From contig NZ_ATYJ01000014.1 of NCBI RefSeq assembly GCF_000427625.1, positions 248,001 through 312,000 of the forward strand: a stretch of 64,000 bases of DNA, in the 5' to 3' direction. Below, one piece after another: positions 1,226 through 63,642 of this stretch. Source of the DNA: Methylobacter luteus IMV-B-3098 (lineage in GTDB: Bacteria; Pseudomonadota; Gammaproteobacteria; Methylococcales; Methylomonadaceae). Numbering within the stretch: the first letter of the stretch is position 1; each line of letters begins with the position of its first letter. The translations under genes were made by a program, and so were the position numbers. The notes below the pieces were generated by a model, which was given only the letters and a program-made list of their open reading frames with translations, was not told where the DNA came from and did not search any database.

Positions 1226-1290
1226 TTTTTTACCCCGTGTGTTAATAAAAAACAGAGCTGCTATTTTAGGGGGCGGAAAATTTTTCTGTC

Positions 1291-1329
1291 GGGTCGAAAG
1301 ACGCGCAAAAAACGCCTGTTTTAATTTTT
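1291..1329 (-). promoter_or_regulatory. Conserved upstream element, copy A (before traC)
   Basis: On the plus strand GGGTCGAAAGACGCGC followed by six A and CG occupies 1291-1314, then CCTGTTTTAATTTTT. It lies 66 bp upstream of the traC start. The same element recurs at 8145, 13064 and 21051, always on the upstream side of a minus-strand gene start. A role as activator-binding or promoter element is inferred from this placement. Confidence 0.55.
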
Positions 1330-8109: not shown

Positions 8110-8354
8110 GCGGAATATGATAATCCGCAGAAAAAATTTGCATCGGGTCGAAAGACGCGCAAAAAACGACTGTTTTGATTTTTCTTTGCGTTTTGGTCGG
8201 TGTTTGCGAAGATATTTTAAGAAAAATTTAAGAATTGTCTTTTAGCGGAATAAAAAATGACCAAAACATGGACTAATGCCTTTGTAATCCTCGTCACTGT
8301 ACGTCTGATTTCAGGCTGCAGCACTTTCAAACCCTACGCGCAAAATCCGTTTGA
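7831..8354. repeat. Direct repeat, left copy, about 525 bp (transglycosylase N-terminus, promoter, lipoprotein N-terminus)
   Basis: This stretch matches 12750-13275 over its whole length with scattered substitutions. It spans the first part of the transglycosylase gene, the divergent intergenic region and the first ~33 codons of a lipoprotein gene. The left copy has an intact transglycosylase and a truncated lipoprotein; the right copy has the reverse. Similarity stops abruptly at both ends. Confidence 0.9.
8145..8183 (-). promoter_or_regulatory. Conserved upstream element, copy B (before the transglycosylase operon)
   Basis: GGGTCGAAAGACGCGC plus six A and CG lies at 8145-8168, followed by ACTGTTTTGATTTTT, and is preceded by TTTGCATC as in copies C and D. 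It stands 36 bases upstream of the transglycosylase ATG. The region also faces the lipoprotein start on the plus strand, so it may serve both directions. Confidence 0.6.
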
Positions 8355-13028: not shown

Positions 13029-13275
13029 GCGGGATATGATAATCCGCCGAAAAAATTTGCATTGGGTCGAAAGACGCGCAAAAAACGCCTGTTTTGATTT
13101 TTCTTTGCGTTTTGGTCGGTGTTTGAGAAGATATTTTAAGAGTATCTTAAGAAATCTCTTTTTAATGGAGCAGCAACATGACTCAATCACGGACTAACGC
13201 TTTCGCAATCCTTCTTACTGCCTGCCTAATTTCGGGCTGCGGAACCTTCAAACCTTACGCACAGAATCCATTTAA
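12750..13275. repeat. Direct repeat, right copy, about 525 bp
   Basis: This matches 7831-8354. It contains the start of the transglycosylase gene (broken here), the divergent promoter region with element copy C, and the start of the lipoprotein gene (intact here). Similarity begins at AAGCGCT at 12750 and ends at the ATTTAA ending at 13275. Confidence 0.9.
13064..13102 (-). promoter_or_regulatory. Conserved upstream element, copy C (inside the duplicated region)
   Basis: The element at 13064-13087, then CCTGTTTTGATTTTT, is part of the 525-bp repeat. It stands 36 bases upstream of the broken transglycosylase start. On the other side it is 91 bases from the intact lipoprotein gene at 13178, which it might also serve. 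Confidence 0.5.
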
Positions 13276-14162: not shown

Positions 14163-16973
14163 TCACATATGGTCCAACAAATACTGCCGTTGAGCGTCAA
14201 TGTCTGATCCTTGGGTTTGGGTATTTAACCGATCCTGCACGTTGTTGGTTTGTGTGTTCGGTAAATTGCCCGTAGTAACCGTTCCAGAACTGTATAGCGA
14301 TTCCGCCACGGTACTGTTAAGCGGCATGACATTGGCCACTTTGAGCATATCGATCCATTCACTAAAATCCATCTGGTCAAAATCCAGACCGGCAATTTGG
14401 TCAACAGTGAATCCGTCGCAACTGGGTTCGCGTGGTAGACCAAAACTCATACTCAGCTGTTTCCGGGCCTGCTCCTGAAACACGCGTGCAAAAGGGCTGG
14501 TAAAACAACAGTAAGCTTGCTTTTCCGCCACGCACCCGAAGAATGTATCCGCTGAACAGTACGTCCCAATCTCATCAGGCTTGGTGCACATTTTTTGGTC
14601 TTTATACATAGCTAGCTTCATCTCTTCTTCGGTGCACGCAAAAATCAGTTGCACCACCATTTTCGCGATTTGATAGATCGCGTAAATGATGCCCACAACT
14701 GTCATAATCGAGGACAACATTGAGCCTGCCATTGTATAGCTTGTTTGTACGGCTGCTCCAGCTCCTGTCGTTGTCGCCGTAAGCAAGGTGGAGGCGGCCG
14801 TTTCCCCGAATGTCGATGCTATCCAGTGACCCAGCCAATTGGCCACTTGGTTTTTGATTGCTTCCATCGATAAATCGGTAAGCAGATTTTCACCCATCAT
14901 GGACAGCACAGAATCATACATGGATGAGAATGGTTGGGTTATAGCGGTATAGGTATCGGCTATCATGTTGACCGGAGTCTGAAATACCGTGCCGTTAGCC
15001 AGTAATTGCCAGGCGCCGGAAGCGGCCTCAGTACCTGCATTCGACAATCCAAATTGATAGACTTCAACGGACGTATCGGCCATATCCCATGTATTTTTGG
15101 CCAGCCAGATATAATCAATCCAACTACCCTGGATGGGCATGTTGCAGCAATCGACGTTACCCAGAATGGAAAGGTCCGCCATCTGGCACCACAAGGCTTC
15201 CCCTTTAAACAGCTCGCACTCGCTCGATGCCGGATCACAATCCTTGGCCTTTTGCGCCTCGTTCAGCGTCTGAAGCGCTGTGGCCGCCTTGATGAAATCT
15301 TCGTTGGATTCCTGCGGCGGATCAACGCACTCGCCGCCCATGCAGCGTATTTGGGCATCGCAAATGGTTTTTTCGCCGTTATTAGACAGATCACAGGTGG
15401 CTTCATGGTCAGTGCCGCAATCATAGGTGACGATAAATTCCTTGCAGGCGCCGGTAAGGGTATCTATACGGTCATTCCCGGCATCGTTTTTAGTGCATTC
15501 CTCCTTGACATAGGCACAGGACGGATTGGCTGCCAGTGACTCGCAGGTATCATGCGCACTGAGCGGATAATCGTACTCAGGACATATTTCATAGCCCTGG
15601 TAATCGGTATAGCAAGGCTCGATCACATGCGAGCTCGGCACTCGCGATTCCGCCTGATAGCAAATGGGCGCGGGCGGCGATGCCGGCGGATCGGGCAGTA
15701 TGGGCCCCGCTAATGCGCCGTATTCCTTGGGGGTAATGGTTACCGTGCCTACCACGCGATCATTCGATGCATCCAGGCACTGCCACCAATCGGTCGAGGC
15801 TTGATCATTCAGCGAATCTGTCGGAAACCAGAGCGGAGGCGACCAGCCTGGCGGCCATGCATTAAACACGCGTTCCCTGCAGCCGGGCGGATTGTCGATG
15901 AATTGCTCGGAAAGATCCGGTGAGGCCATGACCTTTAACGTCGCGGCGGCCTCGCCCAGTCCGCCGACCAGCGTTTCCTGCCGTACCACAACCGTTCCGC
16001 CTTGAGCCGCATTTTTAAACGCGGCAGTAATATCGGTGCCGGGGTTCTCGACCCAACTTTCACCGAGTTCGCAACCTCCACCGCCCCATCCTGTCCCACC
16101 GGTATAAACCAAGGTGTCGTTAATGTATATGCGCGTGTAATCGTCATATTTAACATTATCGATCGTGACCTGGATAATGGCATCCGGACGCATCACCACA
16201 TAACTCGCGTTCCAGTTAAAGACCGCGCAATCCCCTGCCAGGGTATTATTCGTATCAGGGCCTACATGCAAATACGTACACCCCGATCCGCAGCTGGCAA
16301 TCCTGCCGTTCCCTGATCCGAAGCCCATGATCGGCGTATAGGAAACCGCGCGCGTCACTTTGCACGTCTCGTTCCCCAAGACTTTTTTGCACGTTTTCAG
16401 GTCTTCCACATGGATTGGGCAGGAGGTCTCGGCCCAGTTCGTGGTTTTAGTGCAGCCGCTGAACAGATCGTCGATCAAAGGCGACTGCCGGGACAGCACC
16501 GCATCCGATTGTTGCCAGATCGGGTCGTTGTAGATGTTCGGCATCGCCGTATTGGCGCCCATCAGGGTCTGGTAGGCGTAAGCATGCGTGGACGATCCTG
16601 TGGACAGCGAGTTGATGGTATTGTTGACGTAAGTACCCTGAGCCGCCGAATTACCGTAGGCCGCTGCAGCCGCATCCATCGAGCCGGGCTGTATCTCCTG
16701 GAACATCTCGTTTTGCTGGATCTTCTGGCCCGCCACCGGTCCGTTGGTCAGCGTAATTTCCCCGGTTGCGGCATTGACATCCGGTATCGTAAACTCGGAC
16801 ATCAGGGTTCCGCCAAGCGCTTCGCCTTCAACCGCCTTGTCTATGAAGGCGTCCGCAAACGCTGGAAACGGCGTAAAGAAAGCGAATCGGGCCGCAATGT
16901 AAAATACGGCAACCGAATTATGGAAAATGCAGACGATGAGAATTTCTGCGACGGCTTTTGTAATTTTTTGCAT
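14163..16973 (-). CDS. traN: TraN-like outer-membrane mating-pair stabilisation protein
   Basis: This encodes a 936-residue protein with an N-terminal membrane/signal segment (cleavage near FADA, about residue 41). A cysteine-rich central and C-terminal region has many CXnC pairs (for example TCESLAANPSCAYVKEECTK and CCNMPIQGSW), typical of TraN. TraN contacts the recipient's outer membrane and stabilises mating pairs. A hydrophobic alanine/threonine-rich stretch occurs around 690-760. It lies directly after traU (52-base gap), the usual U-N order. Its disulfides presumably depend on the DsbC encoded in the next operon. Confidence 0.85.
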   Translation of the reverse strand: MQKITKAVAEILIVCIFHNSVAVFYIAARFAFFTPFPAFADAFIDKAVEGEALGGTLMSEFTIPDVNAATGEITLTNGPVAGQKIQQNEMFQEIQPGSMDAAAAAYGNSAAQGTYVNNTINSLSTGSSTHAYAYQTLMGANTAMPNIYNDPIWQQSDAVLSRQSPLIDDLFSGCTKTTNWAETSCPIHVEDLKTCKKVLGNETCKVTRAVSYTPIMGFGSGNGRIASCGSGCTYLHVGPDTNNTLAGDCAVFNWNASYVVMRPDAIIQVTIDNVKYDDYTRIYINDTLVYTGGTGWGGGGCELGESWVENPGTDITAAFKNAAQGGTVVVRQETLVGGLGEAAATLKVMASPDLSEQFIDNPPGCRERVFNAWPPGWSPPLWFPTDSLNDQASTDWWQCLDASNDRVVGTVTITPKEYGALAGPILPDPPASPPAPICYQAESRVPSSHVIEPCYTDYQGYEICPEYDYPLSAHDTCESLAANPSCAYVKEECTKNDAGNDRIDTLTGACKEFIVTYDCGTDHEATCDLSNNGEKTICDAQIRCMGGECVDPPQESNEDFIKAATALQTLNEAQKAKDCDPASSECELFKGEALWCQMADLSILGNVDCCNMPIQGSWIDYIWLAKNTWDMADTSVEVYQFGLSNAGTEAASGAWQLLANGTVFQTPVNMIADTYTAITQPFSSMYDSVLSMMGENLLTDLSMEAIKNQVANWLGHWIASTFGETAASTLLTATTTGAGAAVQTSYTMAGSMLSSIMTVVGIIYAIYQIAKMVVQLIFACTEEEMKLAMYKDQKMCTKPDEIGTYCSADTFFGCVAEKQAYCCFTSPFARVFQEQARKQLSMSFGLPREPSCDGFTVDQIAGLDFDQMDFSEWIDMLKVANVMPLNSTVAESLYSSGTVTTGNLPNTQTNNVQDRLNTQTQGSDIDAQRQYLLDHM

Positions 16974-17025
16974 GGCTGTCTATTCTTAATCTTAATCTGT
17001 TGAGCGAAGAAGGTGGGGTGCCGGA

Positions 17026-18168
17026 TTAGTCTTCATGGTCCGTCAAACAGCAATCCGTGTAACGCCAGATCAGGTAAACGAAGTCTTCGCCCGTGCCGGG
17101 GATATTCCGCCACTCGCCCCACGTGAACGGCGTCTCTCCAAGGTAATGGCAGCAATTCTCACCAGGAACCACTTTCTCCACTATGCGGGTATGCCCTTCG
17201 GCATCCGTTTCCTGCGTGCTGATTTTTTCCGCTTTGGCTTCGGTCACCGGAAACAGCATGCTCATCTTGTATTGCTGCTTGGGAATCATGGGATAGAGGG
17301 TGCCGCTGCACAGCGCGTCATTACCGTAGGTTTTGTGAGCAAGGCCACGCCGATGCAGGGCAGCCAGCACTCTCGCAGAAAGCAGGCTACTGTCCCTGAC
17401 CGGTGAGCCATCGGAGGCGATATTGCCCGTGAACGGGTATAAGTTGCCCCAGCAGCCTGCGCACCACCACAAGGAGGTCATCGGCTGTGTTGCCGTCGTG
17501 ACCGCGCAATCCACGGCGCAGGCCGCCACCGCCAACGGATTGGCAAACGCCACGGCCTCCGGATTCAGGAAGAAGGCCAGCTCGTCCACGTTCCAGGTCG
17601 GGTCGATTTCCGACATGTACATCATGTCCATGTTTCTGAAACCGCCGGCATTGCAGCTATTCTGCACGAACAGGTCCAGCATCACGTACAAAGGGAAAGC
17701 CCAGTAATGGTAGTTGTAGAAGGTCTTGTCGGTACCGTCGCCTTCTACTTCTTTATGCCCACCCCACAAACGGACGCTGTTGTTGAATGAAATGCCGCCC
17801 AGTGCCGGCGAGCAGTAAGGTTTACGCACGACCTCAATCAGCCTGGCCGGCAACCAGGCGCCGCCGGTGACGCCCAGCGAGGGGATGCCATCGGCGTCAT
17901 TGCAGAAACAAAAGCTCTGCTCAGCCACATCATCCGGCAGATCATTGTCGTCGTCATAAATGGTAAAACCCAGGAGCCTTACCGGAAACAAACAGGTCCA
18001 GCACACTCCGGTAATCATTTTTTTGCCCCATAAGTCCGCATCGGGACACAGCAATTTCTCAGCGGAAACAGACTGGCTTTCAGTCGTATTGATGGGATCG
18101 ACTGCCATGGTGTCCCAGCTTGCAATCATTCCAAACAGAAGCAGTAGGGTAGAAGTGATTGTTCTCAT
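17026..18168 (-). CDS. traU: TraU-like periplasmic pilus assembly protein
   Basis: This encodes a 380-residue protein with signal peptide 1-22 (ending TMA). The body is cysteine-rich with TraU features (CPDADLWGKKMITGVCWTCLFPVRLLG, CNAGG, WWCAGCWGNLYPFTGNI). TraU is needed for DNA transfer and is held by disulfides. The ATG at 18168 is chosen because it lies 1 base after the preceding stop, with GGGAG upstream. A longer frame to 18210 would overlap the preceding gene. Confidence 0.87.
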   Translation of the reverse strand: MRTITSTLLLLFGMIASWDTMAVDPINTTESQSVSAEKLLCPDADLWGKKMITGVCWTCLFPVRLLGFTIYDDDNDLPDDVAEQSFCFCNDADGIPSLGVTGGAWLPARLIEVVRKPYCSPALGGISFNNSVRLWGGHKEVEGDGTDKTFYNYHYWAFPLYVMLDLFVQNSCNAGGFRNMDMMYMSEIDPTWNVDELAFFLNPEAVAFANPLAVAACAVDCAVTTATQPMTSLWWCAGCWGNLYPFTGNIASDGSPVRDSSLLSARVLAALHRRGLAHKTYGNDALCSGTLYPMIPKQQYKMSMLFPVTEAKAEKISTQETDAEGHTRIVEKVVPGENCCHYLGETPFTWGEWRNIPGTGEDFVYLIWRYTDCCLTDHED

Positions 18169-18169
18169 C

Positions 18170-19342
18170 TCAATGAAGCTCCCGGGCAGCGATTTCCCTG
18201 ACGACCACATGATCGCCTTCCCCTTCTATGACGGAAGGCAGCGCCTGGATCTTGAAGCGGTTAATCATGTCCTGGTTCAGCTTGTACAGCGGGCCGTTCA
18301 AGACATCCCCGGTCTCGTTGAAGTGATCCCAGCCTCTGTCCTTGTCGATTTGTGAAAACAGATAAATAACGGGCTTGTGCTTTTTGAGCGCTTCATCGCC
18401 GGCTTTTTTGGCGATCGCCACCTGCTTTTGGCTGGTCGCATCAAAAACAATGTAGACATTTCGCATCGGCATGATGGCCTGCGGATTGATTCTATCCCCT
18501 CTGGCGATGATTAACCGGCCGTCGGGATGGAAAATAGCCTGCGTCGACACGATGCTCATATCGACGTGGCTGTCGCGGTTTTTCTCGGCCGCCGGCAAAT
18601 TGAACGCATCCTGTCTTTTCCAGAAATTGGCCATGGCCTCGCGTCTTTGCTTATCCCAGTCCATGTGCTCCATCCGGCGCTGGATCTCCTCGATCATGTC
18701 GGGCTCCAGGATCCCAAAGGTGGGGCCTCGCTGGCCATGATCGCCGGGCTCCTGCTTGCTGAGCCACTCAAAGCCGGGCAGGCCTCGCGCTATCCGGGTC
18801 TTTCCCTCGGCATCCGTCTCGATCATGGTAGGCACGACATTCACGTTGAATCTTGTGAAAAGCGTGGGATCGATCACGGTGCCCGGCACCGGCTTCAGGT
18901 CTTTGACGATCGGGATCAGTTTCTTTGTGATCGATCCGGTATGGGTTCCTGGTTCCACGCCCCGGAATACCAGTACGGATTTCGAGGTGGCCGCTTCTTC
19001 AGCGGCGGCTCTGATTTCATGCGCTGGCATTGAAAAGGACACAAAAATCCATTTTCCTTGCACAGTGACGGGTTGCGGTTTATTGGGATCTCCGCCCGGG
19101 ACTTGTGCATTTCCGCCTGCAATCTGATTGCCGTCTTTCAACAGTTTTTCGAAAACAGGGCTTAACTGGGCCGGCTGGGTTTTCAGCCAGTCGGGAATCC
19201 TGCGGTTCATGTTGGGTTGTTGTTCTTTCATAAGCTGTTTGAGAAAAAAATCGTCCTCGCCCGCCCCGGCGATTGAGGACGACAGCAGCACCATGGCCGC
19301 TAAAAGATAACTAGAAAATCGGGTAGGCGCGGCCAATGACAT
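18170..19342 (-). CDS. trbC: TrbC-TraW fused pilus assembly protein
   Basis: This encodes a 390-residue exported protein (signal about 1-27, ending AGA). Residues about 90-230 resemble TrbC (WIFVSFSMPAHEIRAAAEEAA..., thioredoxin-like fold). Residues about 250-390 resemble the TraW C-terminal domain (FHPDGRLIIARGDRINPQAIMPMRNVYIVFD... then FKIQALPSVIEGEG). In F the two functions are separate genes lying near traU. Here one gene upstream of traU carries both, and no separate traW is seen. Both proteins act in the periplasm in pilus extension. Confidence 0.78.
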   Translation of the reverse strand: MSLAAPTRFSSYLLAAMVLLSSSIAGAGEDDFFLKQLMKEQQPNMNRRIPDWLKTQPAQLSPVFEKLLKDGNQIAGGNAQVPGGDPNKPQPVTVQGKWIFVSFSMPAHEIRAAAEEAATSKSVLVFRGVEPGTHTGSITKKLIPIVKDLKPVPGTVIDPTLFTRFNVNVVPTMIETDAEGKTRIARGLPGFEWLSKQEPGDHGQRGPTFGILEPDMIEEIQRRMEHMDWDKQRREAMANFWKRQDAFNLPAAEKNRDSHVDMSIVSTQAIFHPDGRLIIARGDRINPQAIMPMRNVYIVFDATSQKQVAIAKKAGDEALKKHKPVIYLFSQIDKDRGWDHFNETGDVLNGPLYKLNQDMINRFKIQALPSVIEGEGDHVVVREIAARELH

Positions 19343-19880
19343 CTTTTTTATCCACTAATCCGAGTAGGTTGTAACGGGAATCGAGGCTGTATTCGTGATC
19401 GCCGGCGACGAAGTATTTGCCCAGCTGGAGGGTGTTTTTGCCTTCGTGAAGCTCATCGTTCGGGAACAGCTTTCTGAGGCTAAGGCCGACCTCCTTGCCG
19501 ATCAGCGTGCGGTCAACCACTGTGAAATCCCGGCCTTTTCGGGTCACGATGTCACCGGGGCCGGCCAGCAGCCGCTTGGTGAAGATGTAGCCGTCCGGAT
19601 AAGGAGCGCCGTTGTGCCAGCGGAATGCTATCAATCCGCCTGTTTCCACTTTTTCATCCAGCGAAATCAGAAACAATCTGTAAGGCAGGCTGGGAGTCTG
19701 GTTGATGGCCAGCCGGTAGTTGGCGTGAATCACGCCATACAGCGCAGCCAACAAGGCCCAGGTAATGGCATGACTCTTGAAATGGTTCAGCAAGATCGGG
19801 CCAAAAAATTTGCTGCGTTCGATAAAGAGATCAACGGTTAAAGGCTGTTTTATCGGCTGCGGTTTATTCAATGTTGACAT
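19311..19880 (-). CDS. S26-family signal peptidase of the conjugation system (TraF/TrhF type)
   Basis: This encodes a 189-residue protein with an N-terminal membrane segment (about 38-52) and S26 motifs. The candidate catalytic Ser is Ser64 in NQTPSLPYRLF, and the candidate Lys is Lys102 in FTKRLLAGPGD. The box GKYFVAGDHEYSLDSRY is near the C-terminus. In IncP, SXT and H-type elements such peptidases process the pilin or other transfer proteins. The ATG at 19880 has AGAGGAAG in front. A longer frame to 19928 is less likely. The gene overlaps both neighbours, so expression is coupled. Confidence 0.83.
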   Translation of the reverse strand: MSTLNKPQPIKQPLTVDLFIERSKFFGPILLNHFKSHAITWALLAALYGVIHANYRLAINQTPSLPYRLFLISLDEKVETGGLIAFRWHNGAPYPDGYIFTKRLLAGPGDIVTRKGRDFTVVDRTLIGKEVGLSLRKLFPNDELHEGKNTLQLGKYFVAGDHEYSLDSRYNLLGLVDKKDVIGRAYPIF

Positions 19881-20166
19881 AGGCTTCCTCTGGGGCATGC
19901 AGAACGGATTGGGCGTCGAAAATAACAATGCCCTGCTCGATTAGGGGTTGGGTCGCTGACTTGATTTTGGTCATGAGCGCTTTGGCATCGTCTTCGGTTT
20001 GCGCCTGGTTGTTTTCCACGGCTTTTTTAACCAGTGTCTGCACATCGACAACGGCGATCTGGGCCGGGACGGGCGAAAAGGCGGCGGCATAATAGCCGCC
20101 TAATGCGCCGCAGAAGCCGCAAGACAATAACAACATGACCAGTTTGACGGGAGATAGTGGATTCAT
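19864..20166 (-). CDS. trbI: TrbI-like small membrane protein (F type)
   Basis: This encodes a 100-residue protein with one N-terminal membrane segment (about 8-28) and a conserved periplasmic part (IAVVDVQTLVKKAV and IKSATQPLIEQGIVIFDAQSVLHAP) characteristic of F-type TrbI, which affects pilus length and retraction. It is preceded by the TerD-like gene with a 3-base gap and overlaps the peptidase gene. Confidence 0.82.
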   Translation of the reverse strand: MNPLSPVKLVMLLLSCGFCGALGGYYAAAFSPVPAQIAVVDVQTLVKKAVENNQAQTEDDAKALMTKIKSATQPLIEQGIVIFDAQSVLHAPEEAYVNIE

Positions 20167-20169
20167 GAG

Positions 20170-20763
20170 CTAGCCTGCCGATAGTCCGTGCATGCGAACG
20201 AATTCCAGCAGTCCGCCCGTTAAACCGGTGCCGATGGCTTTAAATTTCCAGTCGCCGTTGTAACGGTAGATTTCCCCGGTAAGGACTGCGGTGTACTTTG
20301 AGTAGTCTTCGGTCAGGTCGTAGCGCCTGATTTCCTGGTCCGTGTCAGCATTCAGTACGCGCATGTAAGCGTTCAGGACCTGGCCGAAGTTTTGTTTTTT
20401 CTCGAGCGCCTTGTAGATCGATACGCACACCACGAGCCGGTGCTTATCGGCTGGCACCTGATCCAGCTGGATAAGAATGGACTCATCGTCGCCCTCCCCT
20501 TCCCCGGTTCGGTTATCGCCGGTATGACGGACTGAGCCGCAAACCGAAACCTGGTGGGCGGGGTTGTAAAAGATCAAATCCCGCTCGCTGCTGGCTTTGC
20601 CATCAGCGCCGACCATGATTAACGACACGTCCAGATCAAAGGTTTCCTGGTCGGACGCCCTGATATCCCAGCCGCATCCGATAAGGATGTTTTTTAAGCT
20701 GGGTTCCTCTTTGGTCAGGTTGATGTTTTCGCCTTTTTCAAGGCTGATGACTGGCGTATTCAT
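20170..20763 (-). CDS. TerD-family calcium-binding stress protein inside the transfer operon
   Basis: This encodes a 197-residue protein with the TerD/TerE/CABP1 fold signature: ISLEKGENINLTKEEPSLKNILIGCGWD, then FDLDVSLIMV, the acidic loop GDNRTGEGEGDDESILIQLDQVP and RYDLTEDYSKYTAVLTGEIYR. Family members bind Ca2+ through such acidic loops and occur in tellurite-resistance and stress clusters. Lone TerD genes within a tra operon are unusual. Its start overlaps the preceding gene's stop (ATGA) and its stop is 3 bases before trbI, so it is co-transcribed with transfer genes. Its job here is unknown. Confidence 0.85.
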   Translation of the reverse strand: MNTPVISLEKGENINLTKEEPSLKNILIGCGWDIRASDQETFDLDVSLIMVGADGKASSERDLIFYNPAHQVSVCGSVRHTGDNRTGEGEGDDESILIQLDQVPADKHRLVVCVSIYKALEKKQNFGQVLNAYMRVLNADTDQEIRRYDLTEDYSKYTAVLTGEIYRYNGDWKFKAIGTGLTGGLLEFVRMHGLSAG

Positions 20764-21068
20764 ATGCTTTCGCTCCTTAAGTAAATAGAAGTTGTGGAAG
20801 GGGTAACTTGTTTAACTATTCGGCAGATCGGGTGAACTTGCCTTGTCTTTATTGGAAAAACCAGATAGCGGGTCAGCGCCTCCAGCACGAAATACAGGCT
20901 GCGCAAACCCAGGATGGCAAAGATGACACTGACAATGGCAAACAAAATGCCGTGTTTCGATAGATGATCCGAACTGGTCCAATTTTCCTCCTCGATAAAA
21001 TTCTTTAACTCAACAGCAGAAGATCTTACGGGAAAAAAAAATTTTGCATCGGGTCGAAAGACGCGCAA
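20760..21068 (-). CDS. Small membrane protein, first gene of the terD-trbI-traN operon (start uncertain)
   Basis: The frame yields up to 102 residues with a hydrophobic stretch GILFAIVSVIFAILGLRSLYFVLEAL and a basic, polar tail. Its stop overlaps the terD start. The furthest upstream start is a TTG at 21068, inside the conserved element, which cannot be right if that element is a promoter. No in-frame ATG or GTG lies further down. A GAGGAGG box at about 20989-20995 suggests initiation near there at a non-standard codon. Product unrecognised. Confidence 0.5.
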   Translation of the reverse strand: MRVFRPDAKFFFPVRSSAVELKNFIEEENWTSSDHLSKHGILFAIVSVIFAILGLRSLYFVLEALTRYLVFPIKTRQVHPICRIVKQVTPSTTSIYLRSESI

Positions 21069-21088
21069 AAAACGACTGTTTTGATTTT
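21051..21088 (-). promoter_or_regulatory. Conserved upstream element, copy D (before the terD-traN operon)
   Basis: The element at 21051-21074 is followed by ACTGTTTTGATTTT and preceded by TTTGCATC, identical to copy B across that stretch. It is placed upstream of the small membrane protein/terD/trbI/traN unit and about 400 bases from the divergent activator genes. Confidence 0.6.
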
Positions 21089-21485
21089 GGGAAGTTAAAT
21101 AGGGAGGAAAAATCCGGATTTTTGGGCCTGATCTAAAAAATCCACAGTGATCAAAAATTTAAGTACCAAGCATTTTTTTCGATTTGCCCCTTGCGTTATT
21201 TTTTTTGTGGTTATCATAGATTGGATGAAAACTCTGAAAGCTGTATTTCCCAAAGCTTCCGCCGGATCGTTGCGTTTTTTGCAATCTTTTGGCCTTTAGT
21301 TTTGCCGTGTTTTCATTCAGAATTTAAGCACTTTTTAAGGTTCTAATAAGTTATTGGGTAATAGAGACTCATATACCACTAAAACCGCCACGCCGAAATC
21401 AAGCCATTTGAGTCAGCCGGCAGCTTTGTTATTCGCTTGTAATGGAACCTTGAAGTAACTTTCGTTTTAGTAAGGGAGCAAAACT
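21089..21485. promoter_or_regulatory. Divergent intergenic region between the transfer operon and the activator genes
   Basis: This is 400 bases of AT-rich DNA with no open frame of note. It must contain the promoter for the plus-strand flhD/flhC-like genes. A clear ribosome site (AAGGGAGC) lies a few bases before the first start at 21486. I could not identify a convincing -35/-10 pair by eye. Confidence 0.4.
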
Positions 21486-21824
21486 ATGAACGCAATAAAC
21501 CGAGATCTAACCACCATCAATTTTCAATTTTTGATGTTGGTTCGTGAGTGTGCTAAACGTAATATTCTTGAAGCCATCTGGCGATTCCGAATGGATAAGT
21601 CTGATGCGGAAAGAATATCGGATATGTCTCTTGATCAGATCCAAGACCTGGCTGCCTGCGGCCGGTCCACTCTGGCCATATCACCGTTACCAGAAACGCC
21701 GGCCCATCATATACCGGCCAATGTTGTCGCTGCGTTATTGCCCATTCCGGAAGCACCGTCTTCCGAGCGGACCTCGGAAGACGCTGGCCTCCCATTCTCA
21801 GCTAACGGGGGCCATGCTGAATGA
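21486..21824 (+). CDS. FlhD-like transcriptional activator subunit (first pair)
   Basis: This encodes a 112-residue protein. Residues about 8-62 align in pattern with the FlhD core (NFQFLMLVRECAKRNILEAIWRFRMDKSDAERISDMSLDQIQDLAACGR). A proline-rich tail of unknown role follows. FlhD-type proteins pair with FlhC-type proteins. In SXT/R391 and IncC elements the homologues SetD/SetC and AcaD/AcaC are the master activators of transfer. The stop overlaps the start of the FlhC-like gene (ATGA), indicating a two-subunit complex. Confidence 0.8.
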   Translation: MNAINRDLTTINFQFLMLVRECAKRNILEAIWRFRMDKSDAERISDMSLDQIQDLAACGRSTLAISPLPETPAHHIPANVVAALLPIPEAPSSERTSEDAGLPFSANGGHAE

Positions 21825-22471
21825 ACGCTATACTGGCACGCGAAAATACTTTAGACGTTACGCATCTGCGTTTAACGCCCAAGGAGACTGATATCCTGGG
21901 GATGAAACGAAAGCTGAATCTGGCTACCGGCATTATAAAAAAGGAGGGGCGTCCGACGATCGTGCGAGCTGTTTGCCGAATCTCCAAAGCGTCAGCGGTG
22001 CAGCTGTATAAGGAAATACACGGTAAGGGCCCAAGTTCCGGCTTACTGCCCTACGATCCGGAATGGGTCATGAAATCGCCGGAAAATTGTCTGCACGCCT
22101 CCGTCTATTGCAACATTCATGAGACGTTGGTTCGTGCCGAGACAGATGCCTGGCGAGGGGAAATTTTTCTTGAAGCGTATGAACGCTATGAGGAAACGTT
22201 CGCCTTCAGGCGCCAACCGGTGCTGCTTAATATCAACCGTGCCTGGTTCATTGAGCGGCAAATCAGCCTGTCAGACGTTAGTCGAATGAGCTGCGGCCGA
22301 TGTAATTACACTTACGCCACCATCAAGGAATACCCGGAAGGCTACAAGTTCTGTCCGATCTGCGATGCCACTATCGATTCGCTCGGGCGCCAGAAATGGC
22401 GCAAGGTGAATTTTGGGGTATGCGGCGGTCACAACAGGATCAAAAAGTCTTTATATCTCGAAGCCGTTTAA
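21821..22471 (+). CDS. FlhC-like transcriptional activator subunit (first pair)
   Basis: This encodes a 216-residue protein with the FlhC layout. A helical DNA-contacting N-terminal half includes RPTIVRAVCRISKASAVQLYKEIHGKGPSSG. A C-terminal zinc site consists of Cys158, Cys161, Cys178 and Cys181 (CGRC...CPIC). It presumably forms a heteromultimer with the FlhD-like product encoded just upstream and activates the tra promoters. The C-terminus ends in a basic KWRKVNFGVCGGHNRIKK stretch. Confidence 0.85.
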   Translation: MNAILARENTLDVTHLRLTPKETDILGMKRKLNLATGIIKKEGRPTIVRAVCRISKASAVQLYKEIHGKGPSSGLLPYDPEWVMKSPENCLHASVYCNIHETLVRAETDAWRGEIFLEAYERYEETFAFRRQPVLLNINRAWFIERQISLSDVSRMSCGRCNYTYATIKEYPEGYKFCPICDATIDSLGRQKWRKVNFGVCGGHNRIKKSLYLEAV

Positions 22472-22485
22472 GAAAAGGATTGCTC

Positions 22486-23094
22486 ATGATTTCTTTGAAG
22501 GAGTTTTTCAAGCGAAACACAAAAAATGCCCACGGCTCACGGCTCGCCAAACTGGTATCGACAGAGCTGTACCTGTCAAAAGAGCCGTGCGAGATCGATT
22601 TTGCCGATGTCTCGCACTTGTCGCCTGTTTTTTTTCAGGATTTTATCTTTCCGCTAGTCCTTGAATTTGGCTCTCAAACGCTGAGCGCCCGGCTGAAATT
22701 TGCCAATCTGCGGGAGGAACATATAAACGCCTATCGGACAGCGTGTAATCAAACTACTGATCATATCGACAAGCTTTTGGCCCAGGACGTCCGGCCGTTT
22801 GGCGAGATTTCGGATCTAACCTGCGAACTGCTGATCAAGGCGCGGGAGTTGTCGAGAAACGATCCGGCCACGGCGAAAATCATTTTCGGCATCAACCACA
22901 GCATGATCGATTTTTTCGCCAACATGGACATGGAGCAAATCCGACGGGTGGCCGGCTCAGGCGTTATTTGCTTCGAGCCCCGGTTTACGCCTGAGTTTGC
23001 TGCGAAACTGGCTGCGCTTGAAGCGCATGAAATGGATGTTTTTCTGCATGTCGTGGGTGGACTGGAGGACACGTATGAGCCAGCCTACGCTTGA
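22486..23094 (+). CDS. STAS-like (DUF4325-type) domain fused to an FlhD-like domain (second pair)
   Basis: This encodes a 202-residue protein. Residues about 1-88 have the pattern of the STAS-like DUF4325 domain: a glycine/arginine start (NAHGSRLAKLVSTELYLSKEPCEIDFADVSHLSPVFFQDFIFPLV) ending in a hydrophobic strand and NLREEHI. Residues about 110-166 resemble the FlhD core (LTCELLIKARELSRNDPATAKIIFGINHSMIDFFANMDMEQIRRVAGSGVICFE). The fusion is unlike ordinary FlhD, SetD or AcaD. The ATG at 22486 follows AAAAGGA. The stop overlaps the following FlhC-like start. The STAS-like assignment is by eye and less certain than the FlhD part. Confidence 0.68.
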   Translation: MISLKEFFKRNTKNAHGSRLAKLVSTELYLSKEPCEIDFADVSHLSPVFFQDFIFPLVLEFGSQTLSARLKFANLREEHINAYRTACNQTTDHIDKLLAQDVRPFGEISDLTCELLIKARELSRNDPATAKIIFGINHSMIDFFANMDMEQIRRVAGSGVICFEPRFTPEFAAKLAALEAHEMDVFLHVVGGLEDTYEPAYA

Positions 23095-23536
23095 TCAGTA
23101 CCATTTGGCCTTGGAGATGCTGGCTTACAAGGCGCGCATCTCCATTGTGTCGAAGGCTACGGGCTTGCCGCCGGCCCTTTTGCGCCGGGAATATGTGCGA
23201 ATGCACCAGAAATCGCCGTCTTGTGGGGCGATGAAAACGACGCCCCAGTTTTTCTTCAAGAAGTTCTCACGCCATAAGGAAGCTACGCTGTTCACGTTCT
23301 TTTACAGTCTGGAGCCCGAATCGAACCTGTGTAAGAAGTTGATGAATGCCTATAAACGGTATACCGCTTACATCAAAGCCGTCTGGCACGACGAGCCACT
23401 GATCGATTTCTCGGATGCCTGGTTTATCTCAGGATGGCATGATTCCGGCGATCTGCGCTTGGTGCGTTGCAGTCATTGCCGCAGCATAAAGCTTATCAAT
23501 AAAGAATATAACCTTTGCTGCGTTTGTAGGTTTTAA
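23075..23536 (+). CDS. FlhC-like transcriptional activator subunit (second pair)
   Basis: This encodes a 153-residue protein with N-terminal helices (ISIVSKATGLPPALLRREYVRMHQKSPSCG, compare the first FlhC-like protein) and a C-terminal zinc site of Cys132, Cys135, Cys148 and Cys151. It is shorter than the first copy and than FlhC (about 190). The start at 23075 has GGAGG in front and overlaps the end of the STAS-FlhD gene by 20 bases. It is the last backbone gene before the island boundary at 23572. Confidence 0.82.
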   Translation: MSQPTLDQYHLALEMLAYKARISIVSKATGLPPALLRREYVRMHQKSPSCGAMKTTPQFFFKKFSRHKEATLFTFFYSLEPESNLCKKLMNAYKRYTAYIKAVWHDEPLIDFSDAWFISGWHDSGDLRLVRCSHCRSIKLINKEYNLCCVCRF

Positions 23537-23571: not shown

Positions 23572-23622
23572 TTTGTTGGTGGGCCGTGTGCGATTCGAAC
23601 GCACGACCATCGCATTAAAAGT
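23572..23622 (-). repeat. attL: Island attachment site, left: 3' part of a tRNA-Lys(TTT) gene
   Basis: On the minus strand this reads ACTTTTAATGCG (anticodon loop with TTT), variable loop, T-arm GTGCG-TTCGAAT-CGCAC, acceptor end and CCA. The 5' half of a tRNA is absent, so it is not a functional gene. It matches 57282-57332 over 51 bases with three differences. Two of these are a compensating pair in the T-stem. Confidence 0.85.
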
Positions 23623-23738
23623 TCGAGGCTAAAGTCTATTAGAAAACTGCATACTACTTATAACATCCTTTAATCAATAGGATAGATCACATTTAAAAGC
23701 GTGTAAAGTTGTTAAAAGTAGTATGAGGAAAAATAAAC

Positions 23739-25409: not shown

Positions 25410-25453
25410 AGTCCGTTTGCCCCATAAACGATTAACCCAAGGATTACCCAAAA

Positions 25454-57475: not shown

Positions 57476-58093
57476 TCAGTAATTCGGATAATGCGTGACC
57501 GCCAGGCTGATTAATATGCTGGCAAAAATAAACGCTGTCGGTATGATCGACAAGGGGATGGGCAGCGGACAGACAAGCCACAGGATCAGGAAGCCACCCA
57601 ATGCCAGCAGCATATGCGCCGAGGTATTGTAAAGCGGAGGGAACGGTGGACTGAAGGTTTCGGCTTTCAACCGACGCCCCAGCAGACCGGCCACAAAGCC
57701 CATGGCAATAGGCGCCAGAAACCAAATCCCATACTGTGAAATGATGACTATGCGCAGCGCCAGGTTATAGGCTTGCAGTTTGACGGAAGCCGCCCAATCG
57801 CCGGGAATATCCGCGATGGCCTCACCGATGTGGTCGCCGCTCCGCCTGAATTTGTCGGAATCGTCCCCTTTGTCTCTGAACTCATTTACCACTTTCGCTA
57901 TCAAGGCCAGGTTGTCCCGGTAGAATGCGATTAGCTCATGATCGAGCGCACCTTTGTTGCCAAAGGTGGCGACAGCCTCTTGATAATCTCTCTGGATATG
58001 GGTCGATATGGTTTGGGGACTTAACAGCATGGGCAAAACCAAGGGCGTGAAAAACATGATCATCAGCCAAATGAGAAAATGCTTGCCGATCAT
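57476..58093 (-). CDS. DUF4400-type integral membrane protein of the conjugative element
   Basis: This encodes a 205-residue protein with membrane segments at about 5-25, 120-140 and 155-195 and a periplasmic middle (QRDYQEAVATFGNKGALDHELIAFYRDNLALIAKVVNEF). It has the character of the DUF4400/integrating-element membrane family found directly after traD in SXT-like, gonococcal-island and related ICEs. It probably works with the coupling protein. The start is 3 bases after the stop of the preceding gene, in the traI-traD operon. Confidence 0.75.
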   Translation of the reverse strand: MIGKHFLIWLMIMFFTPLVLPMLLSPQTISTHIQRDYQEAVATFGNKGALDHELIAFYRDNLALIAKVVNEFRDKGDDSDKFRRSGDHIGEAIADIPGDWAASVKLQAYNLALRIVIISQYGIWFLAPIAMGFVAGLLGRRLKAETFSPPFPPLYNTSAHMLLALGGFLILWLVCPLPIPLSIIPTAFIFASILISLAVTHYPNY

Positions 58094-58096
58094 GCC

Positions 58097-58645
58097 TTAA
58101 ATCAATCCCGCCAGCTTGAGTTCGCTCATGGTAAACACCCGTGACGCGCATAACACCTTGGCCACCGGACTCTTGAACGCCGCCTGCGGCTTTTCGATCC
58201 AGTTCAATTCCTCGCTCATGGACGAATTCACAATCCCATCAAGATAGCCATGGGTGATGACGTCATGAGGAGTCCATGACCCTCTAACCTTCATCATGAG
58301 CGTTAACGCCAGGCAATGGACCAGTTCTTCGGACACCCGGCCAATAAAGGCTTTTTGCTCGGCGAGATCGTCATTGTTTTTCAGGATCGCTTTTTCGGCA
58401 TCGATCAATCCACTGGCTAAACAATTAACCAGCAGGCTTTCGCCTTCTTTTCTCGGATCCGGGTAATGCAACGTCAGCAACGACGTCAGTCGCTGCGAGG
58501 ATTCGCGCAGATTAGGCCAACGGGCGAACAGTTCCTGCGCGGCATAATTCAAACGGGTGTTTTTGCAGGCTTTCTTCAATTCCATCGGCGCCGACAAAAT
58601 GGGCGCCTCACGTCTTAAATAATGTACGTTTTTTGGGTCTGTCAT
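58097..58645 (-). CDS. Hypothetical protein between traD and the DUF4400 gene
   Basis: This encodes a 182-residue soluble helical protein (MTDPKNVHYLRREAPILSAPMELKKACKNTRLNYAAQELFARW...). The ATG at 58645 has AGGAAA in front and follows the traD stop by 7 bases. A longer frame to 58771 would overlap traD and is unlikely. No motif is recognised. Position suggests an accessory transfer role. Confidence 0.65.
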   Translation of the reverse strand: MTDPKNVHYLRREAPILSAPMELKKACKNTRLNYAAQELFARWPNLRESSQRLTSLLTLHYPDPRKEGESLLVNCLASGLIDAEKAILKNNDDLAEQKAFIGRVSEELVHCLALTLMMKVRGSWTPHDVITHGYLDGIVNSSMSEELNWIEKPQAAFKSPVAKVLCASRVFTMSELKLAGLI

Positions 58646-58652
58646 GAGTTTC

Positions 58653-60473
58653 CTAGTGAGTGATAATGGGCAGCCGTCCCTTGATGACTCGGCCGCCGGC
58701 GATGGATGCGATGTAATGAAAATTCGGCAAATGCCCCAGCAAGTGTTGGGGGAACAGCTCGTGATCCCCATAAATCAACGACTGGCCGCTATTGCCGGAG
58801 TAATTGATAATGTTCTCGGCGGAATTAACCGCGTTGGAAATATTTTGTTGTACGGTCTTGATCCAGGTCTGCCCGAAGGCCTCGACCACGAATTTTTGGG
58901 TTTCGCCATCCTTGATGCGGAAAGTGATCAGGTTGTTGCAGTTACCGACTATCTGCCTGGCGCGCGCTTCATCGCCCAGCCTGGCGATGATATCCGGCAA
59001 GGTCTGGGTCGCCATGACCACCTGGAATCCGGCGCCGCGGCCTTTGTTGAGAATCTGGATAAACGGCAGGTTGACCACCTCGGCCGCCTCGTCGACAAAC
59101 ATCGAGATGCGCCCGGGCTTATTGCCGCTGTTGTAAATCATCCCGGCGACCGAGGCGAAGTCAGCCAGCACAATCGAGCCGATGGCCGATGACACGATAG
59201 AGTCCGACAAGGAATCCAGGCCCACGTACAGGACGTGGTTACCTGAAATGATCGTCGACGTGTCCATGATAGGCCGGGGATCGTTAGCATCTTCCTCATC
59301 CGGTGACAGCAGGCCGCCCAGTTCCCCCGAGGTCAGCATGTTCAAGACCGGAATCAATGACGCAATCATTTTGGAAAAGTGCATGCGGTTGTGTTCGACC
59401 AGCGACAGCAACCCATCGATGCCCTCCGACCCTTTCGGGCCATTGCTCCAGGTTGCCCGGTACCATTCGATGATGGCCAGCCAATCCGGATTGGCAATGG
59501 TCTCCATTTTCTTGGCTTTCCCGCCCCGCGCTTTGGTAAAGAACGGTTCCGCGCTGATTTTCCATTCCGGATCCGTGCGCTCGGCGTGCGCCTCTATGGC
59601 TTTGACCAGGAGCGATTCAGCGCCGCCTTCGATAAAATAGCGCAATTGCTTGATCGACGGCCGTTTGCCGGTTTCGATGAGGCCTTGCGCGACCAGATTT
59701 AATGTCCGGAACGCAAACGCCGTGAAGGCATCAGAGCCGCCGGTCTGCGACGGCATCAAGGCCGCGATGCGTGAGGCAAGCTCGGTCGCTCGGGTGAAAT
59801 TGCGCATAGTATCGAGGCGGATCGAGGAGCGGGGAAACGCCGGATGGAAAAACAGATAGGCAGTGGTACGGCCGGCTCTTTTGCACTCGAGTTCCATGCG
59901 GTCGCGCAGTTCCTTGTCCCCCTTCGGGTCGATGACGATCACGATGTCGCCCCGGTGAATGGCTTGGGTTATCATCACCTCGAACGCGCGCGTTTTTCCT
60001 GCCCCCGTCGTCCCGAACACGATCGTGTGCCCTTCCAGGGATTTAAGGGGTATCAGAACCTCTTCTTCCTTGCCCTTATTCAAGCCATGAATCCAGGGGC
60101 CGCCCGGGTGTTCCTGATCGTGACTCATCTTCGCACCGGACAGCATGTAATCGACCGCCCGCTGCGTATGCGTAGGCGTCCAGTCAAAGCCCCAGCCAAA
60201 CCACATCTTTTCCGGCTTGGCCAGATTCAGCAGCGCAGCGACTTCCAAAAAGGTCAGCATTTCACCGAGTTTGCCCCGCCCTATCAGGCTCATCCCGTTT
60301 ACCGCCGACCGCAGTGCCATCGCTGCAAATATGCCGCTGGCGGTCAACAGGGAGCTGGCGCCAGGCAGTATCAAATAGCCTGCCAAGGTAACGGCCACCG
60401 CTATGAACCAGGTGCCGGCGATATAAAACTCGTAAGGCTTCCGGATATAAGGATCAAAATTATCGCTGGCCAT
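58653..60473 (-). CDS. traD: TraD-like type IV coupling protein
   Basis: This encodes a 606-residue protein with two N-terminal membrane segments (about 17-36 and 41-58), a Walker A VFGTTGAGKT (152-161) and a Walker B ISMFVDEAAEV, followed by the VMATQTLPDI motif of the VirD4/TraD family. It couples the relaxase-bound DNA to the secretion channel as a hexameric ATPase at the inner membrane. Its start overlaps the traI stop by 14 bases. The length matches the TraD of MobH-type ICEs. Confidence 0.92.
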   Translation of the reverse strand: MASDNFDPYIRKPYEFYIAGTWFIAVAVTLAGYLILPGASSLLTASGIFAAMALRSAVNGMSLIGRGKLGEMLTFLEVAALLNLAKPEKMWFGWGFDWTPTHTQRAVDYMLSGAKMSHDQEHPGGPWIHGLNKGKEEEVLIPLKSLEGHTIVFGTTGAGKTRAFEVMITQAIHRGDIVIVIDPKGDKELRDRMELECKRAGRTTAYLFFHPAFPRSSIRLDTMRNFTRATELASRIAALMPSQTGGSDAFTAFAFRTLNLVAQGLIETGKRPSIKQLRYFIEGGAESLLVKAIEAHAERTDPEWKISAEPFFTKARGGKAKKMETIANPDWLAIIEWYRATWSNGPKGSEGIDGLLSLVEHNRMHFSKMIASLIPVLNMLTSGELGGLLSPDEEDANDPRPIMDTSTIISGNHVLYVGLDSLSDSIVSSAIGSIVLADFASVAGMIYNSGNKPGRISMFVDEAAEVVNLPFIQILNKGRGAGFQVVMATQTLPDIIARLGDEARARQIVGNCNNLITFRIKDGETQKFVVEAFGQTWIKTVQQNISNAVNSAENIINYSGNSGQSLIYGDHELFPQHLLGHLPNFHYIASIAGGRVIKGRLPIITH

Positions 60474-62934: not shown

Positions 62935-62940
62935 GCAATG

Positions 62941-63642
62941 TTAACCGCGCTGTCTGGTATACTGATCGATCAGTTGCTGGATGCGGCGGCGCATGTGAGC
63001 CGGGTTATGCATGTTTCTTAGTTCGATATCGACCGTGCCGTTGGTTCCTGCCGAGTCAAGATGCACGGTGCCGATACCGAGCAGCCGGTCCAAAACGCTC
63101 TGCTCCACGCCCACCGTTTTAATATCATTAAAGCGAATCTGTACATGGGATTGCGCGATAATCCCTTTCTTCAGCATGACGCCGTCATGGTCGAAAACCA
63201 TTTTCACGGCAAAGTAGCTGTAGATGAAACGCAGCCCATAGAGGGTTAACGCAAGGCCGGCAAACACATATATCGTCCCCAGGTCTTTTAAGTCCATCCA
63301 GTCGGGTATGTTCTGAATGTTGAGCAGATCAAATAGCCAGCCAGTGACTTTAAAGGGGTAAGCCATTAGCAGGGCGCCTGCCGCTATTTCCAGATAATGC
63401 GGAACGAATCCCCTGAACGCCTGGCGGTATTCCGTTACTTCGGGTCTTTGCCTGTCAGCCAGTGCTGGCTGCGGTTGAGCCGCTTGCGTCCTGCTCCGTC
63501 GGGTCGTGAAACCCAGATGACTATCCGACATGACGGTATACGCCGAGCCAGTCTCGCGATACAGCAGCTCGCACATGGCCTGGGCATCGTCGAAGCGCGC
63601 AAAAGAATTTGCGGCAAGGTCAATGGGGCTTGTTGTTCTCAT
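62941..63642 (-). CDS. Membrane protein with bacterial PH (YdbS/YdbT-like) domain
   Basis: This encodes a 233-residue protein. A polar N-terminus is followed by two membrane segments (about 100-120 and 137-160). The C-terminal bacterial PH domain (about 155-215) carries VMLKKGIIAQSHVQIRFNDIKTVGVEQSVLDRLLGIGTVHLDSAG, the usual signature. The last residues are a basic helix. It lies 6 bases upstream of traI in the same operon and overlaps the preceding gene by 23 bases. Association with conjugation is by position. Confidence 0.78.
   Translation of the reverse strand: MRTTSPIDLAANSFARFDDAQAMCELLYRETGSAYTVMSDSHLGFTTRRSRTQAAQPQPALADRQRPEVTEYRQAFRGFVPHYLEIAAGALLMAYPFKVTGWLFDLLNIQNIPDWMDLKDLGTIYVFAGLALTLYGLRFIYSYFAVKMVFDHDGVMLKKGIIAQSHVQIRFNDIKTVGVEQSVLDRLLGIGTVHLDSAGTNGTVDIELRNMHNPAHMRRRIQQLIDQYTRQRG

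Follow-up and report, generated by a model that had tools for sequence, protein, structure and literature searches.

A candidate two-pair FlhDC-type activator of conjugation, with a STAS-like/FlhD fusion, in mobile elements of methane-oxidizing bacteria

Within a 64,000-nucleotide stretch of the Methylobacter luteus IMV-B-3098 genome (contig NZ_ATYJ01000014.1, positions 248,001 to 312,000; hereafter the window), four consecutive genes encode two FlhDC-like pairs: an FlhD-like subunit (D1), an FlhC-like subunit (C1), a protein joining a STAS-like domain to an FlhD-like domain (SD2), and a second FlhC-like subunit (C2). The window belongs to a replicon of 317,982 bp (about 318 kb; contig C2, distinct from protein C2) in a genome of four contigs and 5.03 Mb. 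A sequence-only reading had proposed these four identities and described the genes as overlapping. The open reading frames lie as read and Pfam agrees with the identities, and the overlap holds for D1/C1 (4 nt) and SD2/C2 (20 nt) but not for C1 and SD2, which are 14 nt apart. Against the Pfam profiles, C1 and C2 score 83.9 bits (E 1.4e-23) and 44.4 bits (E 2e-11) for FlhC, and D1 reaches 25.0 bits for FlhD (E 2.3e-5), slightly below the cut-off of 27. The cysteine motif of FlhC, which has a zinc role, is present in 33 of 33 C1 proteins and 33 of 35 C2 proteins. A genome-wide search at E<=0.001 places FlhD at D1 only and FlhC at C1 and C2 only; the FlhD part of SD2 misses this limit.

The STAS-like/FlhD fusion in SD2 is real, with a firm sequence case once its relatives are included and moderate structural support. 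The 202-residue protein scores 27.7 bits against Pfam DUF4325 (residues 17-77), above the gathering cut-off of 23, and 19.1 bits against Pfam FlhD (residues 107-174, E 0.0016), below the cut-off of 27. Among 23 aligned SD2 proteins including that of the window, all match DUF4325 (E<=0.01; best 1.8e-12) and 17 match FlhD (E<=0.01; best 4.2e-7). In the AlphaFold model, whose mean pLDDT (predicted local distance difference test score) is 67.8, a low-confidence linker connects an alpha/beta N-terminal domain to a helical C-terminal one. The top six Foldseek matches of the model are FlhD structures (probability 0.99-1.00, E 0.11-0.4), followed at lower rank by STAS domains (prestin 0.57, RsbS 0.54) among unrelated low-probability folds, and no Foldseek match has an E value as low as 0.001. 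The N-terminal domain shows no resemblance to FlhD (hhalign probability 0.8). Pfam and Foldseek together bear out the STAS-like fold expected in residues 1-90 and the FlhD similarity expected in residues 110-166 from sequence inspection. Within the STAS-like DUF4325 part, F49 is invariant in our alignment A3; anti-sigma antagonists carry a phosphorylatable Ser/Thr.

The module is a conserved four-gene unit and not a peculiarity of one plasmid. Among 311 genomes of the order searched at the protein level, 48 have an SD2 match, comprising 41 genomes of the window's own family and 7 of a second family, f4; in 5 of the 48, all in f4, the match covers the FlhD part only, and the other two f4 genomes (G049 and G050) match most of both domains (E 1.8e-7). 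A sample of 368 further genomes from the class, including 3 from the same order, has none that matches both SD2 domains and 10 that match one part, and a viral collection searched with SD2 contained no relative. Six-frame profile scans found the order D1-C1-SD2-C2 in most loci from the order-wide search. A scan of genome contigs, which shares many records with the protein search and is not independent of it, gave 28 loci, 26 of them with the fusion. All four genes stand in order in 20 of these 26 (C2 is shortened in L095), and contig ends cut 4 (L113 also has a split C2). Of the remaining two, L115 has all four genes with D1, C1 and SD2 split over frames, and L116, from M. fluvii, is itself truncated and lacks D1-C1. 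Related methanotrophs carry the module on plasmids and on integrative elements, its named hosts being Methylobacter, Methylomonas, Methylovulum, Methylomicrobium and Crenothrix, in addition to metagenome-assembled genomes named only to higher ranks. The closest plasmid record, from Methylobacter sp. YRD-M1, carries the same four genes with an SD2 92% identical to that of the window.

The annotated D1 of YRD-M1 (L004:19134-19373; 79 aa, hypothetical) begins inside an open frame and probably lacks the first half of the FlhD domain. We considered an N-terminal extension of D1, given long upstream open frames in distant modules, and rejected it by inspection: D1 begins at a conserved MSTLDEDL-type start, and the DNA upstream is the conserved promoter. 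Two loci in gammaproteobacterial metagenome-assembled genomes (L117:8407-11587 and L119:2227-5333) hold two FlhDC-like pairs without a STAS-like domain; a REC/HD-GYP (response-regulator)-like gene lies between the pairs, and small helix-turn-helix (HTH)-like and integrase-like genes follow (functions by inspection). Two modules of G185 (L065:2448-3319 and L067:2443-3323) have a third, divergent FlhD-FlhC pair beside a transglycosylase gene, a kind of gene that also neighbors the pair of the IncA plasmid pRA1.

How old is the second pair? In a tree of 75 of 94 FlhC-type proteins (19 rows dropped, 11 whole loci as near copies; a quick search, with many long branches), C1 (24 rows) forms one clade (SH-aLRT support 98) that adjoins flagellar FlhC (84), and C2 (25 rows) forms another (99) elsewhere in the tree; AcaC falls in neither. 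Because C1 and C2 are separate clades, the two pairs are not a recent duplication but, as far as such a tree can tell, old separate lineages. NG86 ratios of nonsynonymous to synonymous substitution (dN/dS) are 0.06-0.17 for all four genes and 0.07-0.15 for SD2 and C2, in two pairs of elements of which the second is near saturation (dS 1.1-1.8), with YRD-M1 D1 compared over 64 codons only; the four genes look to be under selection.

Alignment of the tra promoters yielded a common element of 45 bp, described by a position weight matrix (PWM) from five examples. By inspection, this tra box comprises an inverted repeat, AAAGAgGC and GCGTCTTT, whose halves enclose a tract of A or of T. The four boxes of the window (Table 1) score 52.9-63.2 versus a best score of 14.4 in 3.19 Mb of block-shuffled sequence; a fifth window match, at 34948, scores 16.9 and is near chance. 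A -10 hexamer TA..[AT]T lies exactly 14 nt past the 45-mer in 35 of 39 distinct boxes, while other offsets from 0 to 29 have 0-2 each; the 39 are distinct sites scoring at least 20 on the window replicon and its relatives, a threshold below which the sites of Methylomonas AM2-LC fall. This box-to-(-10) spacing is the geometry of a class II activator, as described for AcaCD, SetCD and FlhDC, whose motifs overlap the -35 region (PMC4542580). In the module's own genome, the first search pattern (up to 3 mismatches) finds 7 box sites, all on contig C2 and in one orientation, and the reversed control pattern finds 0.

Table 1. Features of the four-gene module, its promoter, the tra boxes and the neighboring transfer genes (window positions unless a contig is given)
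Feature	Position	Strand	Remarks
Promoter element of the four-gene operon	21248..21323	+	upstream half AAGCTTCCGCCGG; downstream half TCTTTT at 21285; -10-like CAGAAT at 21318-21323; boundaries by inspection
D1, FlhD-like subunit, 112 aa	21486..21824	+	Pfam FlhD; kept together with partner genes
C1, FlhC-like subunit, 216 aa	21821..22471	+	C-x2-C...C-x2-C motif; Pfam FlhC; own clade
SD2, 202 aa, DUF4325 (STAS-like, residues 17-77) and FlhD-like domain (107-174)	22486..23094	+	Pfam, AlphaFold model, Foldseek
C2, FlhC-like subunit, 153 aa	23075..23536	+	same cysteine motif as C1; Pfam FlhC; separate clade
tra box of terD-100 aa-S26-trbC-traU-traN	21043..21087	-	PWM 63.2; -10 TAAGAT at 21028-21023
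tra box before second, short transglycosylase (slt)-like gene	13056..13100	-	PWM 60.6; -10 TATCAT
tra box before slt-traL-traE-traK-traB-dsbC-traV-traA (putatively one operon)	8137..8181	-	PWM 63.2; -10 TATCAT
tra box of traC	1283..1327	-	PWM 52.9; -10 TAAAAT
Box upstream of ATPase gene then mobH-traD, outside window	contig C2:313326 (L139)		PWM 60.9
traN, traU, trbC, S26 peptidase, 100-aa protein, terD; divergent from module	14163..20763	-	phmmer against annotated YRD-M1 and pRA1 proteins
DUF4400, hypothetical, traD, mobH, PH-domain genes (relaxase/coupling)	57476..63642	-	phmmer against annotated YRD-M1 and pRA1 proteins

The transfer genes of the replicon are F-type/MobH and related to those of IncA/C plasmids. 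The genes from terD to traN adjoin the module in the window, in YRD-M1, in AM2-LC and in five other elements (G113, G078, G215, G069 and G096; genomes and loci carry our own G and L labels), and traC-A-V-dsbC-B-K-E-L-slt and mobH-traD lie farther from it in the window. The order S26-trbC-traU-traN agrees with pRA1, which adds an EAL-domain gene between trbC and traU. mobH is found in the window, YRD-M1 and AM2-LC, and not within the short stretches covered for the other five elements. The tra neighborhood and the class II-type box before tra operons agree with the link to transfer control drawn from the sequence at the outset, and suggest that conjugation is turned on by one of the pairs or by both.

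Which pair reads the box? The co-occurrence sample comprised 80 chosen genomes of the 311, namely the 41 SD2-matching genomes that belong to the window's family and 39 that have no such match; the 7 f4 genomes lay outside it. With a broader pattern, the box is found in all ten genomes whose best SD2 is of window type (52-100% identical to the window's), at 3-12 sites each. It is also found in 3 of the 39 genomes without SD2, namely G080 (6 sites), G098 (3) and G149 (1). The first pattern, applied to four relatives, gave 7 sites each in G082 and G083, both with the module, and none in G081 and G080. G080 and G098 each hold a lone D1-C1 pair, as does a 535-kb replicon of G078, a genome that, like G079, carries both SD2 types; traU is flanked by two boxes in G080 (contig C91) and on the G078 replicon. 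FlhC matches occur in 9 of the 39 SD2-less genomes: those of G080 and G098 are of D1-C1 type and accompany the box, those of G103, G116, G136 and G138 (256-266 bits) are flagellar-type by score and come without a box, and G166, G181 and G196 likewise have a match and no box. Because lone D1-C1 and the box occur together even where SD2 has no match, the box is probably read by D1-C1, with SD2-C2 as an additional pair that may bring in an input domain; this distribution suggests one core activator with an addition rather than two equal activators.

We propose the following model, which we favor with moderate confidence. The four genes would form an FlhDC-type activator module that turns on the conjugation genes of its host element. 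The core activator would be assembled from D1 and C1, bind the 45-bp box just upstream of the -10 element of each tra operon and, once bound, recruit RNA polymerase in class II fashion. SD2 and C2, which most of the elements examined possess, would make up another complex of FlhDC type, with a modulating role. A protein or metabolic signal is probably received by the STAS-like domain, which would adjust the output accordingly, although this is speculative, as is the route by which SD2-C2 might act: by joining D1-C1 in a mixed complex, in which D1 would pair with SD2 like the two FlhD domains of AcaD, or on promoters of its own. The D1-C1 and box half of this model is well supported by the computation, which establishes the gene identities, the conserved order, the box, its spacing and, in the module's own genome, the restriction of the box to the replicon on which the module lies.

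The operon has a promoter element of its own (Table 1). In 8 loci aligned upstream of D1, its downstream half (TCTTTCG or TCTTTTG, as in the tra box) is followed by a -10-like hexamer 33 nt from its start (spacing by inspection). A counterpart of similar geometry exists in distant modules, and a profile built from it finds a single site in 15 of 16 loci, G190a being the exception. We rejected this element as a regulon box; a 64-bp profile finds one copy per element and no second in the tra-linked stretches scanned. The element could serve feedback.

Several observations weigh against the model and have to be set beside it. No box is found, at up to 3 mismatches, in the 31 genomes with other SD2 matches, among which G190 (Methylomonas AM2-LC) was counted despite its plasmid module beside tra genes. 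The boxes of this AM2-LC plasmid are strongly diverged (scores 12-19), although they too lie beside tra genes, and when 13 of the 16 distant loci were searched for repeats without bias, other repeats turned up but no tra-type multi-site box. G149, which lacks SD2 and has a single box with 3 mismatches, has no FlhC match; the reversed control pattern matched once in the 80 genomes (G110); and the two genomes with lone D1-C1, G080 and G098, are drafts of 160 and 240 contigs. The upstream half of the module promoter differs from the tra box, and a like element stands before the lone D1-C1 of G098 and not before those of G080 and G078 (by inspection); its presence in G098 means that the module promoter does not identify a target of SD2-C2. 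The GHKL-type ATPase considered below as a partner of the STAS-like domain is missing from 14 SD2 genomes, yet present on a replicon with lone D1-C1. The box could also be read by another regulator encoded on the element, with the four proteins controlling something else, for example a host regulon. The binding of D1-C1 to the box is a prediction, and both the empty 31 genomes and the single-box genome without FlhC would fit such a regulator. We nevertheless consider it quite improbable, given that the box in its own genome is restricted to the module's replicon, that the only FlhD and FlhC matches there at E<=0.001 belong to this module, and that the promoters have the class II geometry known from SetCD, AcaCD and FlhDC (PMC4542580).

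The IncA/C activator AcaCD offers a view of how two D subunits might be combined. AcaD, reported as weakly FlhD-like (PMC4207636), consists in pRA1 (L040:32679-33287) of two FlhD domains in tandem, the halves matching each other at an hhalign probability of 96.6 (three AcaD sequences). Its N-terminal half matches the D1 profile at 86.9 versus 41.6 for the SD2 FlhD profile, and its C-terminal half matches the SD2 FlhD profile at 95.3 versus 68.3 for D1. The earlier statement that IncC elements use one FlhDC-type pair therefore holds for the count of genes, one D and one C, but AcaD is a tandem of two FlhD domains and not a plain FlhD. The N-terminal domain of SD2 matches neither AcaD half (probability 0.1-0.2), so that SD2 is not a two-FlhD-domain chain of the AcaD kind. 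With D1-type and D2-type domains side by side in AcaD, D1 and SD2 may, by analogy, pair in the module, the STAS-like domain sitting on the complex as an input.

A more elaborate form of this idea is a switchable mixed activator, in which D1 and SD2 would pair like the halves of AcaD, C1 and C2 would provide two DNA-reading arms, and the STAS-like domain would, via a partner-switching protein, select the mixed or the simple D1-C1 complex, so that conjugation would be gated by a signal inside the activator itself; we regard this as a tentative possibility, and rather a doubtful one. STAS-like DUF4325 proteins act in partnership with a GHKL-type kinase/ATPase, and a GHKL ATPase, a candidate partner, is found in 27 of the 41 SD2 genomes versus 4 of the 39 without SD2. 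The window plasmid has such an ATPase (L142:8598-10187; contig C2:216595-218187), which is common to many Methylomonas elements. A second 'ATP-binding protein' of YRD-M1 also has a GHKL domain, and tblastn found no match to it in the other loci searched.

At the other extreme, all four subunits (D1, SD2, C1 and C2) might form one obligate hetero-oligomer. The pairing of two D types has a precedent, because AcaD joins D1-like and D2-like domains in one chain. SD2-C2 does not look obligatory, however, because two genomes that have no SD2 match hold both lone D1-C1 and the box, and an obligate assembly seems very unlikely to us.

Conversely, the pairs might be two independent activators that form no mixed complexes, D1-C1 acting on the tra operons and SD2-C2 on other promoters such as those of integration, excision or cargo genes. 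C1 and C2 are distant clades that each keep the cysteine motif, and each pair can occur without the other: lone D1-C1 is described above, and SD2-C2 lacks a neighboring D1-C1 at two AM2-LC loci (L006 and L074-L075) and in the truncated M. fluvii copy (L116). The module also abuts AlpA-like and integrase genes in some integrative elements. Yet complete modules exist elsewhere in both of the genomes, AM2-LC and M. fluvii, in which the solo SD2-C2 loci among those inspected sit; the unbiased repeat search of two tra-linked loci returned the tra box and, in one of them, tRNA-like repeats, with no second multi-site box; and the conserved operon order argues for joint use. We hold independent activators to be a plausible reading, though one we give less than even weight.

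SD2-C2 might finally be an antagonist, holding transfer down by titration of D1 or C1, or a functionless remnant. It is missing from some elements that have the box, and FlhD-binding proteins are known from enteric bacteria, the YdiV-FlhD and STM1697-FlhD structures being among the Foldseek matches of SD2. A remnant would hardly be expected to conserve both SD2 domains and the C2 cysteine motif at the low dN/dS given above, and we judge this group of explanations unlikely.

How does the module compare with known systems? Like AcaCD, it has FlhD- and FlhC-like genes carried by a conjugative element of MobH and F type whose S26-trbC-traU-traN genes stand in the same order, and AcaCD activates tra operons in class II fashion (PMC4207636). 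This likeness is one of genes and promoter geometry. Unlike the module, AcaCD has one D and one C gene, its tandem-FlhD AcaD shows no STAS-like match, and the pRA1 pair comes after an HTH gene and an SLT gene. SetCD of the SXT/R391 integrative and conjugative elements (ICEs), SgaCD, AqaCD and AsaCD are demonstrated or putative FlhDC-type regulators of mobile elements; as described there, one C and one D subunit are named per element, and the accessible part of that paper (PMC4542580) mentions no STAS fusion. The module shares with the AcaCD/SetCD kind adjacent FlhD- and FlhC-like genes, conjugation genes on the element (eight elements) and the class II-type box, and departs from it in having two pairs in one operon in place of one D and one C gene per locus. 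Two FlhDC-type activators also meet when AcaCD and the FlhDC of SGI1 share a cell, where SGI1 replication needs both (PMC7826253), but these are close homologs on two separate elements (PMC4605294), while the module combines two distant pairs. BisDC of ICEclc, likewise a heteromer that activates ICE transfer, includes an FlhC-like subunit and is subject to positive feedback, except that BisD has a ParB domain (PMC7423338). With flagellar FlhDC (FlhD4C2), the module shares the FlhD and FlhC domains and the FlhC cysteine motif, but its proteins stay below the NCBIfam equivalog cut-offs (FlhC 84 and 45 versus 216 bits; FlhD 21 and 17 versus 90).

A literature search of titles and the starts of abstracts, covering few subscription papers and no preprints, found no description of two FlhDC pairs in one operon or of a STAS-FlhD fusion among the matches listed, in line with the initial impression that no example had been described. 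The module thus appears to be an undescribed, AcaCD/SetCD-like activator in a two-pair, STAS-fused form. IncC plasmids and SXT elements spread under the control of FlhDC-type activators, and how these take in signals is, to our knowledge, poorly understood. Here, a conserved system of methane oxidizers, present in several copies in isolates such as Methylomonas, places a candidate input domain inside one D subunit. With a probable operator mapped and elements with one or two pairs available in nature, the reader of the box and the role of the second pair can be tested directly, and the tandem FlhD make-up of AcaD suggests a possible D-subunit arrangement in the IncC activator.

The surroundings differ among more distant modules. 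In 16 distant loci, mostly from Methylomonas, with gene families named through Pfam on one member each, an integrase gene adjoins the module in 10 and an AlpA-like gene in 5, and 5 have an upstream cluster of RecT, YqaJ exonuclease, AAA ATPase, DUF3150 and CobT/VWA genes; pRA1 also has AAA ATPase, bet, exonuclease, DUF3150 and VWA genes. Four distant loci share another repeat, GACGGAACGCCGACCgAAGTCGGATTCA, whose two sites lie about 9 kb apart (at about 7840 and 16880 in L062, and similarly in loci of G173 and G184) and which stands once ahead of the RecT cluster. The link of distant modules to conjugation genes is less direct: G185 has four copies of traU, 33-91 kb from its four modules.

Beside the module of the window, some 34 kb separate the C2 gene from DUF4400-traD-mobH (23537-57475), where the YRD-M1 plasmid has 35 bp; to judge from this comparison, the stretch is probably a cargo insertion beside the regulator. 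It contains transposase-like genes at 24034-26209 (by inspection) and a TPR protein of 1213 aa. After C2, a degenerate tRNA-like sequence on the minus strand (23580-23652; Rfam tRNA 17.4 bits, cut-off 29, E 0.58), at which ARAGORN calls no tRNA, is a possible trace of an integration site. On the other side, directly behind the tra box, a short remnant lies on the minus strand at 20760-21068; it resembles a TerC-family gene (E 9e-8) that is full length in YRD-M1.

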